Assembly: GCF_014193375.1 (NCBI RefSeq)
Contig: NZ_JACHZF010000012.1
Location: 62,001-126,000, forward strand
Reading direction: 5' to 3'
Source: Halomonas campaniensis
Lineage (GTDB): Bacteria; Pseudomonadota; Gammaproteobacteria; Pseudomonadales; Halomonadaceae
DNA: 64,000 nt
The notes below the pieces were generated by a model that saw nothing but the letters and a program-made list of their open reading frames with translations, did no database searches and was not told where the DNA came from. Below, piece after piece: positions 26,959 through 33,372 of this stretch. The translations under genes were made by a program, and so were the position numbers. Position 1 is the first letter of the stretch, and every line of letters starts with the position of its first letter.

Positions 26959-28380
26959 TCACTGCCCCCACTGGCCCGAGCGCTTCATGGCACCCCACTG
27001 GTGCTTGCGCCGGGCGAACCACTGCCACATGCCGCGGCAGCGCCACAGGGTGTTGAGCTGGCGATAGCCGAAGTTCTCGAGGATCGCCACCAGGAACAGG
27101 CGGAGCATGTCGCGGCGGCGGCGATAGACACGGAACGACAGGGTCTCCAGCAGCAGGCCGTTGACCGACAGCAGGATGCCCATGCCGATGGCCACCAGCA
27201 GGAAGGCGGTCAGCGCCGCCGGCGACACCACCCCGAAGGCGAAGCCCCAGATCATGAAGAGGTAGCCGGCCAGCTCCACCAGGGGCCCGAGCCACTCGAA
27301 GAGCGTCATGAAGGGCCAGGCCAGGTGCCCCGCCGCTCCGCCCCTGGGGCTTGCCGCCAGACGTGCATGGCGGCTCAGGCTCTCGGCCAGGCCGCGCTGC
27401 CAGCGGCTGCGCTGCTTGCCCAGGGTGGCCAGGTCCTCCGGCGCCTCGGTCCAGCAGATCGGGTCGGGCAGGTAGCGGATGCGATAGGGCAGCCGCTTCT
27501 CGCGGTGATAGCGATGCAGCCTGACCACCAGCTCCATGTCCTCGCCCACGGTGGCGGTGCTGTAGCCGCCCACCGCGATCACCCGTTCGCGGTCGAAGAG
27601 ACCGAAGGCCCCGGAGATGATCAGCACGGCGTTCATCGGCGACCAGCCGAGGCGACCGAACAGGAAGGCGCGCAGGTACTCGACGATCTGGAAGCGCGCC
27701 AGCAGGCTCTTCGGGATGCCTGCCTCCAGCAGGAAGCCGCCCTGGACCCGGGAGCCGTTGGCGATCCGCACGGTGCCGCCGGCCGCCACGGTGCGCTCAT
27801 CCTCGAGGAAGGGCTGGACCACCCGCAGCAGGCTGTCGCGCTGCAGGATGGAGTCGGCATCCACGGCGCAGAAGAGCCCGTGGCGGGCGGCGTTGATGCC
27901 GGCATTGAGGGCATCGGCCTTGCCGCCGTTGCGCTTGTCGATCACCCGCAGGTTGGCGTGGCGCCGCGAGCGGTAGAGGCCAAGGACCTCCTGGTGGGGG
28001 ACGCCGAGCCGCAGCGGCTCCGGATGCGCCTCGAGGTCGAAGGCCTCGCGCAGCACCTCGAGGGTCTCGTCCTTCGAGCCGTCGTTGATGACCACCACCT
28101 CATAGTCCGGGTACTGCAACTGCAGCAGCGAGAGCACGGAGGTGCGGATCGTCGCCGCCTCGTTGTAGGCGGGTACCAGCAGCGACACCGAGGGCTCGAT
28201 GCCCAGGTAGGGGGCCTCGGCGCCCAGCTCGGCACGCAGCCGCATGTAGCGGCGCAGGCTGACCATGGAGAGCAGGTTGAGCAGCAGGTAGCCGCCGTTG
28301 AGCAGCAGGAAGTAGCCGATGAAGCCCACCTGGGCCCACCAGGCCCAGTCGATGGCCAGCACGCCCTCGAGAAGGCTCAT
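26959..28380 (-). CDS. Processive family-2 glycosyltransferase, membrane-embedded
   Basis: 473-residue inner-membrane polysaccharide synthase resembling PgaC/IcaA and cellulose-synthase-type enzymes. An N-terminal membrane segment (about 15-40) is followed by a cytoplasmic GT2 domain. All catalytic elements are present: Asp100 in VVINDGS, the DAD at 174-176, Glu-Asp at 280-281 in TVGEDMEL and QRSRW at 323-327, the motif of processive enzymes. Three further membrane segments lie at about 355-415. No PilZ c-di-GMP domain is fused. It is the last gene of a five-gene operon; its ATG overlaps the stop of the HEAT-repeat gene. Sugar donor unknown. Confidence 0.93.
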   Translation of the reverse strand: MSLLEGVLAIDWAWWAQVGFIGYFLLLNGGYLLLNLLSMVSLRRYMRLRAELGAEAPYLGIEPSVSLLVPAYNEAATIRTSVLSLLQLQYPDYEVVVINDGSKDETLEVLREAFDLEAHPEPLRLGVPHQEVLGLYRSRRHANLRVIDKRNGGKADALNAGINAARHGLFCAVDADSILQRDSLLRVVQPFLEDERTVAAGGTVRIANGSRVQGGFLLEAGIPKSLLARFQIVEYLRAFLFGRLGWSPMNAVLIISGAFGLFDRERVIAVGGYSTATVGEDMELVVRLHRYHREKRLPYRIRYLPDPICWTEAPEDLATLGKQRSRWQRGLAESLSRHARLAASPRGGAAGHLAWPFMTLFEWLGPLVELAGYLFMIWGFAFGVVSPAALTAFLLVAIGMGILLSVNGLLLETLSFRVYRRRRDMLRLFLVAILENFGYRQLNTLWRCRGMWQWFARRKHQWGAMKRSGQWGQ

Positions 28381-29501
28381 GGGCGCGCCCCCTCGGCCAT
28401 GGCGCGCCGCAGGGCGTCGCGTCCGTAGCGGTCGCCGCAGGCCTCCAGCAGCGCCTCGAGACGCTCCCGGGTGATGCCGGGCAGCGCGACCAGGGAGTCC
28501 GCCGCCGCCTGGCGCACCCACCAGTCCCGGTCCCCGAGGTGCGGTGTCAGCAGCGCCTCGTCATCGCGACGGGCCTGTCGCCGCAGCGCCTTGAGGGCGG
28601 CGAAGCGTACCCGTGGTGCATCGACGTGGAGGGCGTCGCTCAGCAGGGCGTGATCCCGGGGATCCCCGAGCTCCCCCAGGCAGGCCAGCGCCGCGCAGTG
28701 GAGTGCCTCGCTCTCGCCGCCTTCCGCCAGGCAGCGCCGCACCCAGGGCGCCACCCGGGCCGGGTCGGCGGTGCCCAGCAGGGCCGCCAGGCGCTCCCGG
28801 TGTGCCGGGGCAGCGGCGTCGAGCCCCTCCAGCAGCGGCGGCGTCACCGCGGCGGGTCCCGCCTGGCGGCACAGCGCCTGCAGGCGCGGCATGGCCAGGT
28901 CGCGACGCCGGGCCACCAGCGGCACCAGCCGGGCCATGGCGCGCCGGGCGTCCATGGCCACCAGGGCCTGGGCGGCGGCCAGGGCCACCAGGGGGTTACG
29001 GGCCTCCAGCAGCGGCGAGACGTCCGACCAGAAGCGGTCGCTGGCCAGGTGACCCAGGCAGGCCAGGCCCACCAGCCGTCGGTGCGTCCGGCGCGAGTCG
29101 AGCATCGCGAGTACCGCGCCGGTCATGTCCATGGAGAAGAACAGGGTGTTCAACCGCTCCCGGGCCACACCGCGCAGCTGGCGATGAAGCCGCGTCCAGA
29201 GCAGCAGGAACCACAGCATCTCGCGACGGCGAAGGGGCGGGGCCGTCGCCGGCGCCTCCTCGGCCAGGGTCCAGCCCACCAGGCGCGGCCGCCATTCGGC
29301 CACGAAGGCGACCTGGCGCCGCTCGCGCCGGGCAGCCAGTTCGGAGACCACCAGCACCTGGACCATGATCAGCAGGGTCAGGCCGCCCAGCGACATGGCG
29401 GAGTAGACGGCGAGGCGCAGCACCGGGTCCTCCGGCAGGCTGGCGACGCCCCGGACCCACTCGAGCCAGGTCAGACCGAGGGGCAGCCACTCAGAAGGCA
29501 T
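28377..29501 (-). CDS. Membrane-anchored HEAT-repeat protein
   Basis: 374 residues. One membrane segment lies at about 30-52 (VYSAMSLGGLTLLIMVQVLV). A basic stretch follows, and then about 260 residues of helical HEAT repeats recognisable as LVGLACLGHLASD, LVALAAAQALVAMDA, LHCAALACLGELGDP, VRFAALKALRRQA and WVRQAAADSLVAL. It should present a protein-binding solenoid to the cytoplasm beside the glycosyltransferase. A role as adaptor between the receiver protein and the synthase is inference from gene order. It overlaps the upstream barrel gene by 11 bases and the downstream glycosyltransferase gene by four. Confidence 0.88.
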   Translation of the reverse strand: MPSEWLPLGLTWLEWVRGVASLPEDPVLRLAVYSAMSLGGLTLLIMVQVLVVSELAARRERRQVAFVAEWRPRLVGWTLAEEAPATAPPLRRREMLWFLLLWTRLHRQLRGVARERLNTLFFSMDMTGAVLAMLDSRRTHRRLVGLACLGHLASDRFWSDVSPLLEARNPLVALAAAQALVAMDARRAMARLVPLVARRRDLAMPRLQALCRQAGPAAVTPPLLEGLDAAAPAHRERLAALLGTADPARVAPWVRRCLAEGGESEALHCAALACLGELGDPRDHALLSDALHVDAPRVRFAALKALRRQARRDDEALLTPHLGDRDWWVRQAAADSLVALPGITRERLEALLEACGDRYGRDALRRAMAEGARP

Positions 29502-30285
29502 GGCGTATACCGAGCTGGACCCCGTGACGGTCGTAGAGATCGCCCTGGCTCAGGGTGCCGACCTCCCAGCTCAGCGCCCAATCGGGGCGCCACCAGTGTC
29601 GGCCGCGCAGGGCGACGGCGGTCACCTCGGAGGTGACCACCTCACCGCCCGGCAGCCCCTCCTCCTCACGGCCCAGGCTGGCACGCAGACCGATGACGCT
29701 GCGCTCGCCGTAGTAGTGGTCCAGCGCCAGGGCATGGCCCACCGGGGTGCCCGCAGAGGAGACATCGCTGACATTGAGGGTATAGCCGGCGCGCCAGGGG
29801 CCCCAGTAGCGCTCCATCCCCAGGGCCAGCCGGTCGACCCGCGAGGCCTCATACTCGGTGCGACGCAGGCTCAGCGCCCCCACCAGGCCATGGGGCAGCC
29901 GCCGCTGGAGCCTCAGGTCGGCATACCAGCGCGGCAGGAAGTCGGCACCGAAGGTGCGCCCCGCCTCGGGCTGGAGCACCCAGTCGGCATCGAGGGGCAG
30001 CGCGGCGCCCAGCTCCACGCCTTCATCGCGTTCGCCATAGCGACGGTCGCGGGTCGCGGCGCCGTACCAGGTGGGGGCATCCGGGCGCGTGGACTGTAAC
30101 TCGAGACGCTGTCCCTGCCAGTTAGAGAAGCCACTATCCAGCTGGTCGAAACGCTGGGACAGCTCCACCTCGAGCCGCCGCGGCTCGGCCGCCGCGGGCT
30201 GGGCCACCACCAGGCCGAGGCCCATCAGCAGGCAGGCGAGGCCGGCCAGCCGCCGGTCGGATCGAGTCATCACACTCCCTGGCAT
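29491..30285 (-). CDS. YaiO-family outer-membrane beta-barrel protein
   Basis: 264 residues with a signal peptide ending near PAAAEPRR. Alternating aromatic/hydrophobic beta strands follow, and the C-terminal strand ends in Phe (GVQLGIRHAF), the outer-membrane insertion signal. Segments such as WYGAATRDRRYGERDEGVELGAAL, LPHGLVGALSLRRTEY and RHWWRPDWALSWEVGTLSQGDLYDRHG match the YaiO/NfrA-type barrel. It probably forms the export pore or anchor for the polysaccharide. The ATG at 30285 overlaps the receiver-gene stop (TGATG) with AGGAGG upstream; a second ATG at 30270 also has a ribosome-binding site. Confidence 0.87.
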   Translation of the reverse strand: MPGSVMTRSDRRLAGLACLLMGLGLVVAQPAAAEPRRLEVELSQRFDQLDSGFSNWQGQRLELQSTRPDAPTWYGAATRDRRYGERDEGVELGAALPLDADWVLQPEAGRTFGADFLPRWYADLRLQRRLPHGLVGALSLRRTEYEASRVDRLALGMERYWGPWRAGYTLNVSDVSSAGTPVGHALALDHYYGERSVIGLRASLGREEEGLPGGEVVTSEVTAVALRGRHWWRPDWALSWEVGTLSQGDLYDRHGVQLGIRHAF

Positions 30286-30674
30286 CAACGCCTCCTCATC
30301 AAACGGCGCAGGCGCGCCAGCAGCTCATCCGGCTGAAAGGGCTTGGTCACGTAGTCATCCGCGCCCAGCTCCAGGGCGCGCACCACGTCCGCCTCGCGGG
30401 CCTTGGCGGTGAGCATCAGCACCGGCACCGCCTGCCAGGCGGGCCGCTGGCGCAGCTGCTCGACCACTTCCAGGCCGTCATGGTAGGGCAGCATGACGTC
30501 CAGCAGCACCAGGTCGGGCGGGGTCTCCTGGTCCAGCGCCTCAAGCGCCTGGCGACCATCGGCCGCATGCCGGACCGTGAAGCCATGTCGCTCGAGCAGG
30601 AAGCGGATCAGGAAGGCGATATCCTCCTCGTCCTCCACCATCAGGATGCTCGGCTGGCGGTCGGAATCGCTCAT
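30285..30674 (-). CDS. Stand-alone receiver-domain response regulator
   Basis: 129 residues, a single CheY-like receiver with no output domain. The acidic pair is in VEDEED (14-18), the phosphoacceptor is Asp59 in LVLLDVMLP, the switch Thr is Thr89 in LMLTAK and the conserved Lys is Lys111 in VTKPFQPDEL. With no DNA-binding domain it must act by protein contact, plausibly on the HEAT-repeat or glycosyltransferase proteins encoded next. The ATG overlaps the kinase stop (ATGA). The start MSDSDRQPS is chosen for this coupling. Confidence 0.93.
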   Translation of the reverse strand: MSDSDRQPSILMVEDEEDIAFLIRFLLERHGFTVRHAADGRQALEALDQETPPDLVLLDVMLPYHDGLEVVEQLRQRPAWQAVPVLMLTAKAREADVVRALELGADDYVTKPFQPDELLARLRRLMRRR

Positions 30675-32212
30675 GGTGTCTCCTCCTTGATCGACTCGAA
30701 TGGCGGTTGCCAACGGGGCCACCATACGCGAAACCGGGTTCCCTCCCCAGGCACGGAGACGAAATCGATCTCGCCCTCCATCAGCTCGACCAGGCGTCGG
30801 GTGATGGCCAGGCCCAGCCCGGTGCCACCGGTTCGGCGACGGTCCGATCCGTCGGCCTGGGCGAAGCGCTCGAAGACCCGTGGCTGGAACGCCAGGGGGA
30901 TCCCCTGCCCCCGGTCGACCACCGACACCTCGAGCCCCTCGCGCCCGGCCCGGACGTCGGGCGTCACCGCCACGGTGACCTCCCCGCCTGCCGGCGAATG
31001 CTTGATGGCATTGGAGATCAGGTTGGCCATCACCTGGGCGAAGCGTTCGGGATCGACGCTGATCCGCTCCGCCTCCGGCAGCGGCCCCGCCAGCGCGAGC
31101 TCGACGGAGAAGCTCTCGGCAAAGGGGGCGTTGTCGGCGATCGCCTGCTGCACCAGCTCGAACAGTGAGACCCGCCTGGGCTGCATGACCAGCTGCCCGG
31201 CCTCGAGCTTCTCCATGTCGAGGATGTCATCGATCAGCCGCGCCAGCCGCTCGCCGTTCCGGTCGGCCACCGTCACCAGCGAGCGGGCGTCGCCGGGCAG
31301 CGCACCGGCCATGCCCTGGGCCAGCATGCCCAGCGCGCCGCGAATCGCCGTCAGGGGGGTGCGCAGTTCGTGGCTGACCGTGGAGACGAACTCGGCCTTC
31401 ATCCGCTCTACCTGGCGCCGCTCGGTGACGTCACGGGCGATGGCGAGGTGCTCGCCATCCTGGGTTGGCAGGAGTCGTACCTCGAAGATGACGTCCGCCT
31501 CCTGCCAGGAAAAGGTGCGAACATCGGAGGCCCTGTCAGAGGGGGCGCGCTGTTTCCTGAGCGCATCGGCAAAGGCTTCGCTCACCGGAAGGTCACCGTC
31601 CAGACGTGCCACACCCCCTGAAGCATCCACCACATAGAGGGCATCGGGAATCGCCCGCAGCAGCGCAGCCAGCCGCTGGGACGTACTGGCCAATACGCGT
31701 TTCTGCTCAAACAGCTGCACTCGTAACTGGTGTTCACGGAGCAGCTCCTCGGCCTGGGATGCCAGCAGGGATAGCCGCCGCTGATCATCGGCGGAAAAAG
31801 TGCGGGGCCTGGGATCCAGCAGGCATAGGGTACCCAGGGCGTGACGGCCATCTGGCCGGAGCAGCTGACCGGCATAGAAGCGAATATGGGGAGGAGCCGT
31901 CACCAGGGGGTTGTCGCAGAAGCGGTGATCCTGCAAGGCATCCTCAACTACCAGGGTCCTGTCGTTGGCCACCGCGTGGGCACAGAAGGAAATATCCCGC
32001 GAGGTTTCGCGAGGCCCGAGACCATGGTGTGACTTGAACCACTGACGATGCTCATCCACCAGGGAGATCAGGGCGATGGGCACATCGAAGAGGTCGCTGG
32101 CCAGTGCCGTCAGGCGATCGAAGCCAGGATCCGAAGGAGTGTCGAGTATCTGGAACTCATACAGGGCATTAAGCCGATGGAGCTCACCGCCGGGCCTGGC
32201 TGCTGTTCGCAT
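30671..32212 (-). CDS. Soluble hybrid-free sensor histidine kinase with GAF and PAS domains
   Basis: 513 residues, no membrane segment. An N-terminal GAF domain (about 20-160) contains DISFCAHAVAND and FYAGQLLRPDGRHALGTLCLLD, typical of cytosolic GAF kinases. A short PAS-like region (about 180-265) and the HisKA box with His281 (STVSHELRTPLTAIRG) follow. The ATPase domain has N-box NLISNAIKHSP, G1 DRGQGIP and G2 GTGLGLAI. It begins the operon receiver - barrel - HEAT - glycosyltransferase and should phosphorylate that receiver. The signal sensed is unknown; a redox, ligand or light cue could bind the GAF domain. Confidence 0.93.
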   Translation of the reverse strand: MRTAARPGGELHRLNALYEFQILDTPSDPGFDRLTALASDLFDVPIALISLVDEHRQWFKSHHGLGPRETSRDISFCAHAVANDRTLVVEDALQDHRFCDNPLVTAPPHIRFYAGQLLRPDGRHALGTLCLLDPRPRTFSADDQRRLSLLASQAEELLREHQLRVQLFEQKRVLASTSQRLAALLRAIPDALYVVDASGGVARLDGDLPVSEAFADALRKQRAPSDRASDVRTFSWQEADVIFEVRLLPTQDGEHLAIARDVTERRQVERMKAEFVSTVSHELRTPLTAIRGALGMLAQGMAGALPGDARSLVTVADRNGERLARLIDDILDMEKLEAGQLVMQPRRVSLFELVQQAIADNAPFAESFSVELALAGPLPEAERISVDPERFAQVMANLISNAIKHSPAGGEVTVAVTPDVRAGREGLEVSVVDRGQGIPLAFQPRVFERFAQADGSDRRRTGGTGLGLAITRRLVELMEGEIDFVSVPGEGTRFRVWWPRWQPPFESIKEETP

Positions 32213-32382: not shown

Positions 32383-32427
32383 TTGACCCTTATCGATGCC
32401 TGAAGACTATCATGAACGATATTCATG
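32383..32427 (+). promoter_or_regulatory. Possible promoter and palindromic operator of the YihY gene
   Basis: TTGACC (32383-32388) and TATCAT (32408-32413) are 19 bases apart, slightly long. The -10 runs into a perfect palindrome, CATGAA-CGATA-TTCATG (32411-32427), a likely operator. Confidence 0.45.
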
Positions 32428-32439
32428 AAAGGCCCTGCC

Positions 32440-33372
32440 ATGAAACTCGCCCGCCGAATGCTATCGCGCCAAGCGTTCTTGACTCTTCTGCCGCGGGTGG
32501 GACGCTTCCTGTGGCGGGTGATCACGGCCTTCCTGCGCAACCGCGGCATCCTGCTGGCCGGCGGCGTGGGCTACAACATCCTGCTCTCCATCGTGCCGCT
32601 GTTCGCGCTGCTGGTGGTGCTGCTGGCCCGGGTGGTGGACGAGGCCCACCTGCTCGGCGTGCTGTCGGTCCAGGCGCGCCACCTGGCGCCGGCCCATGCC
32701 GAAGTGCTGCTGGAGGCGGTACGAGCGCTGCTGGACTCCCGCGAGGTGATCGGCATCCTCGGCTTTCCGGTGCTGCTGCTGTTCAGCTCCTTCGCCTTCC
32801 GCATGCTGGAGGACGCCCTGGCGATCATCTTCCATGCCCCGGACACCCATCCCCACGGCCGCAGCGCCTGGGTCTCGGTGCTGATGCCCTACGCCTTCAT
32901 GCTGGTGCTGGGGGCGGGGCTGATGGCGCTGACCCTGCTGGTGACCCTGGCCAGTTCGCTCAATGCCCTGTGGCTGGCACTGTTCGACCGCGAGCTGCCG
33001 CTGGCCGGATTCTCGGAGACCGCGCTCAACCTGACCAGCTTCCTCGGGGTCTTCCTGCTGTTCAGCGCCATCTACAAGGTGCTGCCGGTGGTGAAGGTCG
33101 CGCTGCGGCGGGCGATCGTCGGCGGCCTGGTGGCCGCCCTGCTGTGGGAGGGGGTGCGCCTGCTGCTGGTCTACTACTTCGCCAACATCTCCTTCGTCAA
33201 TGCCGTCTACGGGTCGCTGGCCACCCTGATCGTGGTGCTGCTGAGCCTGGAGGTGGGCGCCATCATCCTGCTGCTGGGCGCCCAGGTGATCGCCGAACTG
33301 GAGCGCAATGCGCGGCTCGGCCTGGCCTGGCACGTCGACCCGCGCCGCCAGGCGGTGACGCACGTCGATTGA
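32440..33372 (+). CDS. YihY/BrkB-family inner-membrane protein
   Basis: 310 residues with about six hydrophobic segments. Family features are ILLAGGVGYNILLSIVPLFALLV near the N-terminus, FSSFAFRMLEDALAIIFH, FLGVFLLFSAIYKVLP and the C-terminal YGSLATLIVVLLSLEVGAIILLLGAQVIAELER. The function of the family is not settled: it was once called RNase BN in error, and members are linked to virulence and envelope lipid transport. The start at 32440 has AAAGG seven bases upstream; the in-frame ATG at 32425 falls inside the palindromic operator. Confidence 0.9.
   Translation: MKLARRMLSRQAFLTLLPRVGRFLWRVITAFLRNRGILLAGGVGYNILLSIVPLFALLVVLLARVVDEAHLLGVLSVQARHLAPAHAEVLLEAVRALLDSREVIGILGFPVLLLFSSFAFRMLEDALAIIFHAPDTHPHGRSAWVSVLMPYAFMLVLGAGLMALTLLVTLASSLNALWLALFDRELPLAGFSETALNLTSFLGVFLLFSAIYKVLPVVKVALRRAIVGGLVAALLWEGVRLLLVYYFANISFVNAVYGSLATLIVVLLSLEVGAIILLLGAQVIAELERNARLGLAWHVDPRRQAVTHVD

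Follow-up and report, generated by a model that had tools for sequence, protein, structure and literature searches.

Gene Content and Gene Junctions of the Cluster

Five genes are located side by side on the minus strand of a 64,000-nucleotide stretch of the Halomonas campaniensis genome (contig NZ_JACHZF010000012.1, positions 62,001 to 126,000), which is termed the window in the following. They occupy positions 26959-32212 and encode a histidine kinase, a receiver-only response regulator, a YaiO barrel, a membrane-anchored HEAT protein and a processive glycosyltransferase of family 2 (GT2). The gene order from the receiver to the GT2 was found to recur in many bacteria and, without the barrel gene, on haloarchaeal plasmids. 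Taken as a whole, the cluster may encode a polysaccharide machine of the synthase-dependent kind into which a phosphorelay switch is built, an interpretation to which we give slightly better than even chances.

The first gene (32212-30671) encodes a soluble kinase of 513 amino acids, which matched the GAF (1.4e-14), HisKA and HATPase_c profiles. Its sole hydropathy peak (residues 34-52) falls inside the GAF domain. In a preliminary description of this DNA it had been called a soluble GAF/PAS kinase; the GAF domain was recovered, whereas the PAS match stayed below the cut-off (PAS_4, E = 0.05, 14.3 versus 23.1 bits). The second gene (30674-30285) encodes a protein of 129 amino acids with a match to the Response_reg profile (4.1e-33). 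The phosphorylation residues E14, D15, D59, T89 and K111 are present, together with a conserved W80, and an output domain is absent, so that the protein is a single-domain response regulator.

The third gene product (264 amino acids, 30285-29491) belongs to the YaiO family, which includes the E. coli protein of that name. It matched PF19413 (4.8e-27) and clearly exceeded the cut-off of TIGR04390 (176.7 versus 32 bits). The membership was confirmed by an AlphaFold2 model based on a 54-row alignment, which predicted a barrel of 14 strands with a mean predicted local distance difference test (pLDDT) value of 89.2. Foldseek matches of the model included OmpG (TMq 0.64), while a sequence search of the PDB yielded nothing up to E = 1. 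The N-terminus is hydrophobic and resembles a signal peptide. The outer-membrane pore of synthase-dependent exopolysaccharide systems is thus represented in the window by the YaiO barrel. The HEAT protein (374 amino acids, 29501-28377) was recognized by the HEAT_2 profile (5.8e-16). Its AlphaFold2 model, calculated from a 69-row alignment (mean pLDDT 94.6, pTM 0.86), consists of a single helix (residues 26-79), which contains a hydrophobic stretch at about 27-52, and a subsequent HEAT solenoid, in which a WWVR repeat is conserved. A fold search with the model retrieved HEAT, ARM and alphaRep solenoids (best Z 17.1, root mean square deviation 5.0 over 264 residues), and by sequence the PDB yielded alphaRep, the PP2A scaffold and further repeat proteins. 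Eight near-duplicate Stutzerimonas/Pseudomonas loci had been dropped from both folded alignments, as well as L075 (HEAT) or L046 (YaiO).

The last gene (28380-26959) encodes the putative synthase of 473 amino acids. GT2 family profiles matched it down to 3.2e-25, and it has hydropathy peaks as expected for a membrane enzyme. The residues D100, D174xD176, E280-D281, Q323, R324, R326 and W327 were identical in 81 of 81 aligned GT2s, i.e., in the window protein and its counterparts in 80 further loci (see below), in agreement with the preliminary description, which had stated that all catalytic residues are retained. They constitute the D, DxD (174-176), ED (280-281) and Q(Q/R)xRW (QRxRW, 323-327) motifs of processive membrane GT2 enzymes. 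The best NCBIfam match was PgaC_IcaA (TIGR03937), with 147.1 bits versus a cut-off of 422.3 bits, and thus the protein is not a PgaC/IcaA equivalog. In the PDB the matches were to other GT2s, including cellulose, hyaluronan and chitin synthases, and most of them extended over short stretches.

The coupling of starts and stops that had been described before is present in the sequence. The kinase and receiver genes share an ATGA (4-bp overlap), the receiver and YaiO genes a TGATG with 1 bp in common, and overlaps of 11 bp and 4 bp were found for YaiO/HEAT and HEAT/GT2, respectively. A caveat is an alternative YaiO start at position 30270 with an AGGGAG closely upstream, the choice of which would lead to a 14-bp gap after the receiver gene. 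A promoter scan of the cluster did not reveal a sigma-70-like promoter, and a terminator scan gave one terminator-like site, which is not above the number in shuffled sequence. As these scans were uninformative, it is the overlap of the gene ends which suggests that the five genes are on one transcript. With 0.66-0.75 per kb, the operon resembles the surrounding DNA in GC content.

Conservation of the Gene Order in Bacteria

Conservation of the gene order among genomes had been set beforehand as a test. Genome contigs were scanned with the GT2 alignment, and the best 80 of at least 546 relatives were selected by GT2 similarity, ignoring their neighbors. In these loci, which are not independent of one another (14 are Stutzerimonas or labelled Pseudomonas), a HEAT gene was present in 77 and was located immediately upstream of the GT2 gene in 73. 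A stand-alone receiver preceded the HEAT gene within 3.5 kb in 75 of the 76 loci that have a HEAT gene and upstream sequence. The flanks of the same loci contained 23 stand-alone receivers in 924 kb, which corresponds to a background of 0.087 per 3.5 kb (0.047 if the Stutzerimonas group is left out). Therefore, the adjacency of receiver and HEAT genes is far beyond chance. The YaiO gene was found between the two in 55 of the 80 loci and anywhere in the locus in 62. It was not detected in the remaining 18, i.e., four Bacillota loci, nine Massilia-type loci, L079, L082, L116, L119 and the cut-off L075. In some loci other than the window proteins with TPRs were found, annotated or by eye.

Only five of the 80 loci were devoid of the receiver. 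In three of them (L068, L071, L073), which belong to the Nitrospira type, the upstream part is short and the HEAT gene is missing, too; the related loci L069, L074 and L111 have receiver and HEAT genes at a position further upstream. In L075 the sequence ends 971 bases before the GT2 gene, and for L115 the absence was also seen in a direct tblastn search. The same arrangement was seen in records that carry the labels Pseudomonadota, Nitrospira, Bacillota, Cyanobacteria, Sericytochromatia and Armatimonadetes, and thus the order receiver-(YaiO)-HEAT-GT2 holds far past related species.

Of the five-gene unit that had been proposed, this part proved to be conserved, while the kinase is outside the core: a kinase gene was found at a distance of up to 6.5 kb in 47 of the 80 loci, and the kinase type differs among loci. 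In five Halomonadaceae loci (L042-L045, L059) the kinase is kept just upstream of the receiver. The GAF kinase of the window is probably the input of this copy.

Two further samples covered the class and the phylum. In the class sample a HEAT match was obtained for 41 of 369 genomes at E ≤ 1e-3, and just 11 matches, the window included, reached E = 2e-22 or better. Most of the weaker ones are probably generic HEAT proteins, and they are sited in long open frames. The ten other good matches and one weaker one (stretches L031-L041) showed the order receiver-YaiO-HEAT-GT2 in eight of eleven cases. In L036 and L039 the receiver was not next to the HEAT gene, in L038 the GT2 gene was not on the contig, and in L035 YaiO was represented by a piece of only 64 amino acids. 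In the phylum sample, 14 of 398 genomes exceeded the threshold (E ≤ 1e-100) and yielded 11 new loci, in ten of which the receiver was located just upstream of the barrel gene; the eleventh (L175) has a distant GT2. The HEAT profile, which misses divergent alphaproteobacterial HEAT proteins, detected the HEAT protein in six of these 11 loci, and in five it was found by eye (L169, L170, L172 and L174 clear, L173 short and weak). Among the close relatives, 58 genomes were searched, including 36 others of the genus, and the HEAT protein was found solely in the window's own genome.

Distant Loci, Plasmids and Archaea

Six loci with more distant GT2s (E 6e-152 to 8e-109) all contained an open reading frame (ORF) of the HEAT family upstream of the GT2 gene, which in one case is only fragmentary and lies in an interrupted frame. 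None of the six had an adjacent receiver, and L152 has one a few kb off on the opposite strand. Fourteen plasmid records were obtained at E ≤ 1e-50 and 12 of them were examined, the other two being further Mesorhizobium records; a looser search retrieved 19, five more than the first. A HEAT protein, annotated or recognized by profile, preceded the GT2 in 12 of 12 records, and a receiver was located upstream in seven (Mesorhizobium, Halosolutus, Salinirubellus, Haloarcula, Erythrobacter, Devosia and, weakly, Emticicia). On the three haloarchaeal plasmids receiver, HEAT and GT2 follow one another in that order, with 4-bp overlaps in Salinirubellus, and YaiO was not found within 5 kb. Likewise, the four Bacillota loci (L076, L094, L118, L120) retain receiver-HEAT-GT2 and lack YaiO. 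Its absence from these Bacillota and haloarchaeal records, the latter being outside the sample of 80, is as expected for cells without an outer membrane. On one of the plasmids (Halosolutus, L177, near 10625) and also near the cluster in the window (32425-33372, by eye) a YihY/BrkB-like gene was observed, which may be a coincidence.

Because HEAT-GT2 occurs without an adjacent receiver in all six distant loci and in five of the 12 plasmid records, it looks like the older pair, to which the receiver would be a frequent addition. The same distribution would also fit a general polymer synthase made of HEAT and GT2, with a receiver that regulates another operon function, e.g., export via YaiO. This explanation is very improbable, as the receiver persists in the four Bacillota loci and on the three haloarchaeal plasmids (within 5 kb) without YaiO, and as the receiver is cytoplasmic while YaiO is outside.

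Features of the Receiver Proteins

The preliminary description had noted that the receiver has no output domain, and this applies to the whole sample: in 75 of 75 loci just 1-16 residues follow the receiver domain, and a C-terminal output domain was found in none. Of 76 aligned receivers, 73 have kept Asp59, 76 Lys111 and 73 Trp80. A tree was calculated from the 160 receivers, out of 177, that remained when identical sequences had been removed. One side of a split comprised 79 of the 81 module receivers and two of the 79 other receivers, at a low support of 0.24.

The receiver frames were read from stop to stop, so that their starts are not fixed, and N-terminal extensions were inspected in the Bacillota loci and L116. 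In all four Bacillota loci the receiver is preceded by an extension of roughly 180-270 amino acids. The L118 protein clears the DivIVA cut-off (32.8 versus 28 bits), while those of L094 and L120 gave a profile match to the receiver family only and are DivIVA-like by eye. A small upstream protein passes the same cut-off in L094 (30.3 bits) and fails in L118 (15.7 bits) and in L120.

A Possible Phosphorelay Switch of Polysaccharide Synthesis

The following mechanism is proposed. The GT2 would polymerize sugars and pass the resulting chain through the inner membrane. Its partner there and in the cytoplasm would be the HEAT protein, which would correspond to the PgaD of PgaCD; its being nearly always encoded beside the GT2 makes it a likely co-subunit of the PgaC-like enzyme. 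The exit through the outer membrane, in most cells possessing one, would be the YaiO barrel, to which TPRs may or may not be joined. A linked kinase would phosphorylate the receiver on Asp59, and the phosphorylated receiver would bind directly to the HEAT-GT2 complex and switch synthesis without a transcriptional step, the kinases being interchangeable plug-in inputs. What the sequences show is the content, order and conservation of the genes, the key residues, the lack of C-terminal output domains and the predicted folds; complex formation and a direct action of the receiver on the synthase, in either direction (on or off), are inferred. In its widest form the proposal would define a hitherto undescribed synthase class in bacteria and archaea with the HEAT protein as an obligate co-subunit and the phosphorylated stand-alone receiver as an allosteric switch, which in Bacillota would be positioned by the DivIVA-like part; this generalization is tentative, and we rate it at a little less than an even chance.

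It had been suggested before that the HEAT solenoid is the docking surface of the receiver. Pairwise protein distances were compared for the 52 loci left after thinning at 15% GT2 distance, without a species tree as control. All six pairs correlated, with values reached in 0 of 300 permutations. The partial correlations were 0.62 for HEAT-GT2 given the receiver, 0.42 for receiver-GT2 given HEAT and 0.09 for receiver-HEAT given GT2. They tie the receiver to the GT2 and not to the HEAT protein, and therefore docking to HEAT is not specifically favored.

The low receiver-HEAT value is one of several observations that weigh against the proposed switch. The receiver was not found within 5 kb in the plasmid records of Deinococcus, Paenibacillus, Planococcus, Bacteroides and Legionella. 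Nine Massilia-type loci (L066, L070, L081, L085, L089, L091, L096, L097, L110) are without a detectable YaiO; they belong to outer-membrane bacteria and have receiver-HEAT-GT2. Many of the loci outside the Proteobacteria come from metagenome-assembled genomes. In a survey that set hybrids of histidine kinase and response regulator aside, no fusion of any two among receiver, HEAT, GT2 and YaiO was found in the ORFs of 91 loci. Furthermore, Glu replaces Asp59 in three of the 76 aligned receivers (L078, L088, L102), in which the acid pair is changed too, and a kinase was not seen within 6.5 kb of their genes. Judged by these residues they are unlikely to be ordinary phospho-acceptors; their genes nevertheless remain in the operon. 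The Emticicia receiver (L181) reads Asn at the phosphorylation site (by eye), and hence phosphorylation of the module receivers is not universal.

Hpt genes lie beside the Mesorhizobium and Devosia modules, which leaves room for other wirings. In addition, GGDEF-like genes, identified by pattern and not by profile, occur in 18 of the 80 loci, 13 of which are Stutzerimonas or labelled Pseudomonas. In Stutzerimonas-type loci (L046, L049-L050, L052-L057, L060-L062, L065) a receiver and GGDEF-like genes were observed near the module, mostly upstream of a hybrid kinase. The Hpt genes and the Stutzerimonas loci with hybrid kinases and GGDEF-like genes would fit a receiver that is a phosphorelay intermediate or a phosphate sink (Spo0F-like) between kinase, Hpt and either a regulator or a diguanylate cyclase encoded at a distance, and whose place in the operon serves co-expression only. 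This is considered unlikely, though worth keeping in mind. Among the 33 loci for which no kinase was seen up to a distance of 6.5 kb, some of them short, 28 still contain the receiver, the three receivers with Glu instead of Asp59, for which a phosphate relay is unlikely, keep K111 and W80, and the DivIVA match of the L118 protein suggests a cellular location rather than a relay step.

The GGDEF-like genes would equally be compatible with a synthase that is governed mainly by cyclic di-GMP (c-di-GMP) in trans, with receiver and HEAT protein just localizing or assembling the complex. The partly DivIVA-like L118 receiver protein and three PilZ matches elsewhere in the window's genome are in line with this view. 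Within the operon, a c-di-GMP-binding domain or co-polymerase, as in synthase-dependent exopolysaccharide systems, was not found: the absence of PilZ that had been reported earlier was verified, and neither PilZ nor MshEN nor another c-di-GMP receptor domain was matched in the five window proteins at E up to 0.1. Moreover, the receiver-HEAT-GT2 set is present in haloarchaea, which generally are not known to use c-di-GMP signalling. Control by c-di-GMP in trans thus seems still somewhat less probable than a relay or sink function.

The Predicted Polymer

The polymer is most likely an N-acetylhexosamine polymer, as suggested by the genes at other module loci. On the Halosolutus plasmid a sugar nucleotidyltransferase gene and glmS are located downstream of the GT2 gene. 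A CE4-type polysaccharide deacetylase, complete or partial, is encoded in ten of the 80 loci (L068, L069, L071, L073, L074, L077, L082, L093, L107, L111), in L082 between HEAT and GT2, and seven of seven aligned members matched PF01522. In 25 of the 80 loci, from Massilia, Nitrospira and others, a secreted TIM-barrel-like, glycosidase-like protein is encoded near the module (e.g., L066:5415-7067, L074:6281-7957 and L187 near 16-1692). It had no Pfam match above cut-off, and its profile matched one solved chain named putative GH97 (E 4.2e-9). Neither the deacetylase nor the TIM-barrel-like gene was found beside the cluster in the 22-38 kb stretch of the window that was read. One distant locus contains genes for a nucleotide-sugar dehydrogenase and an epimerase and may make a different polymer.

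Comparison With Known Systems

The closest known arrangement is PgaABCD, which makes poly-N-acetylglucosamine. In common are a processive GT2 with an inner-membrane partner, an outer-membrane barrel with or without TPRs, the deacetylase and glycosidase-like genes of some module loci, and PgaC_IcaA as the best NCBIfam match of the GT2. In contrast to PgaABCD, the cluster has a HEAT solenoid instead of PgaD and a receiver instead of c-di-GMP, its GT2 scores far below the PgaC_IcaA cut-off, and its barrel is predicted to be 14-stranded, whereas PgaA is a 16-stranded barrel. BcsA, Alg44 and PelD are c-di-GMP-gated synthases. An allosteric switch on a membrane synthase, which is proposed here for the cluster, would be common to them, but theirs binds c-di-GMP, for which a domain was not found in the five window proteins.

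Post-translational control of synthase systems is frequently exerted via c-di-GMP, according to PMC12802240 and PMC7112194. The former describes that in Myxococcus xanthus the phosphorylated EpsW activates EpsZ post-translationally. It shares with the proposed function of the cluster that a polysaccharide enzyme is under the post-translational control of a single-domain response regulator. EpsZ, however, is the phosphoglycosyl transferase that initiates synthesis in a Wzx/Wzy pathway (PMC12802240), while the cluster pairs a HEAT protein with a GT2 of the synthase type. The enzyme gene of the operon is this GT2, and a phosphoglycosyl transferase of the large monotopic kind is not encoded. In the main text of PMC12802240 "heat" occurs only as heating and GT2 is absent, and that of PMC7112194 contains neither HEAT nor YaiO nor response regulator. 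A receiver-HEAT-GT2 or YaiO-HEAT cluster was not described among the matches listed (titles and starts of abstracts), and literature combining "HEAT repeat" and "YaiO" was not found; subscription journals were thinly covered in both cases. Within these sources, direct action of a receiver on an enzyme of polysaccharide synthesis is thus already known from EpsW and EpsZ, while a receiver beside a HEAT-GT2 synthase, presumably as its switch, appears to be new.

The module is a likely setting for annotated HEAT and YaiO proteins of poorly understood role, and it supplies a concrete gene set for testing. If the proposed switch is true, many bacteria and some archaea would gate the synthesis of a matrix polymer by phosphorylation through a portable conserved module, which would be a phosphorelay counterpart of the c-di-GMP-gated synthases.

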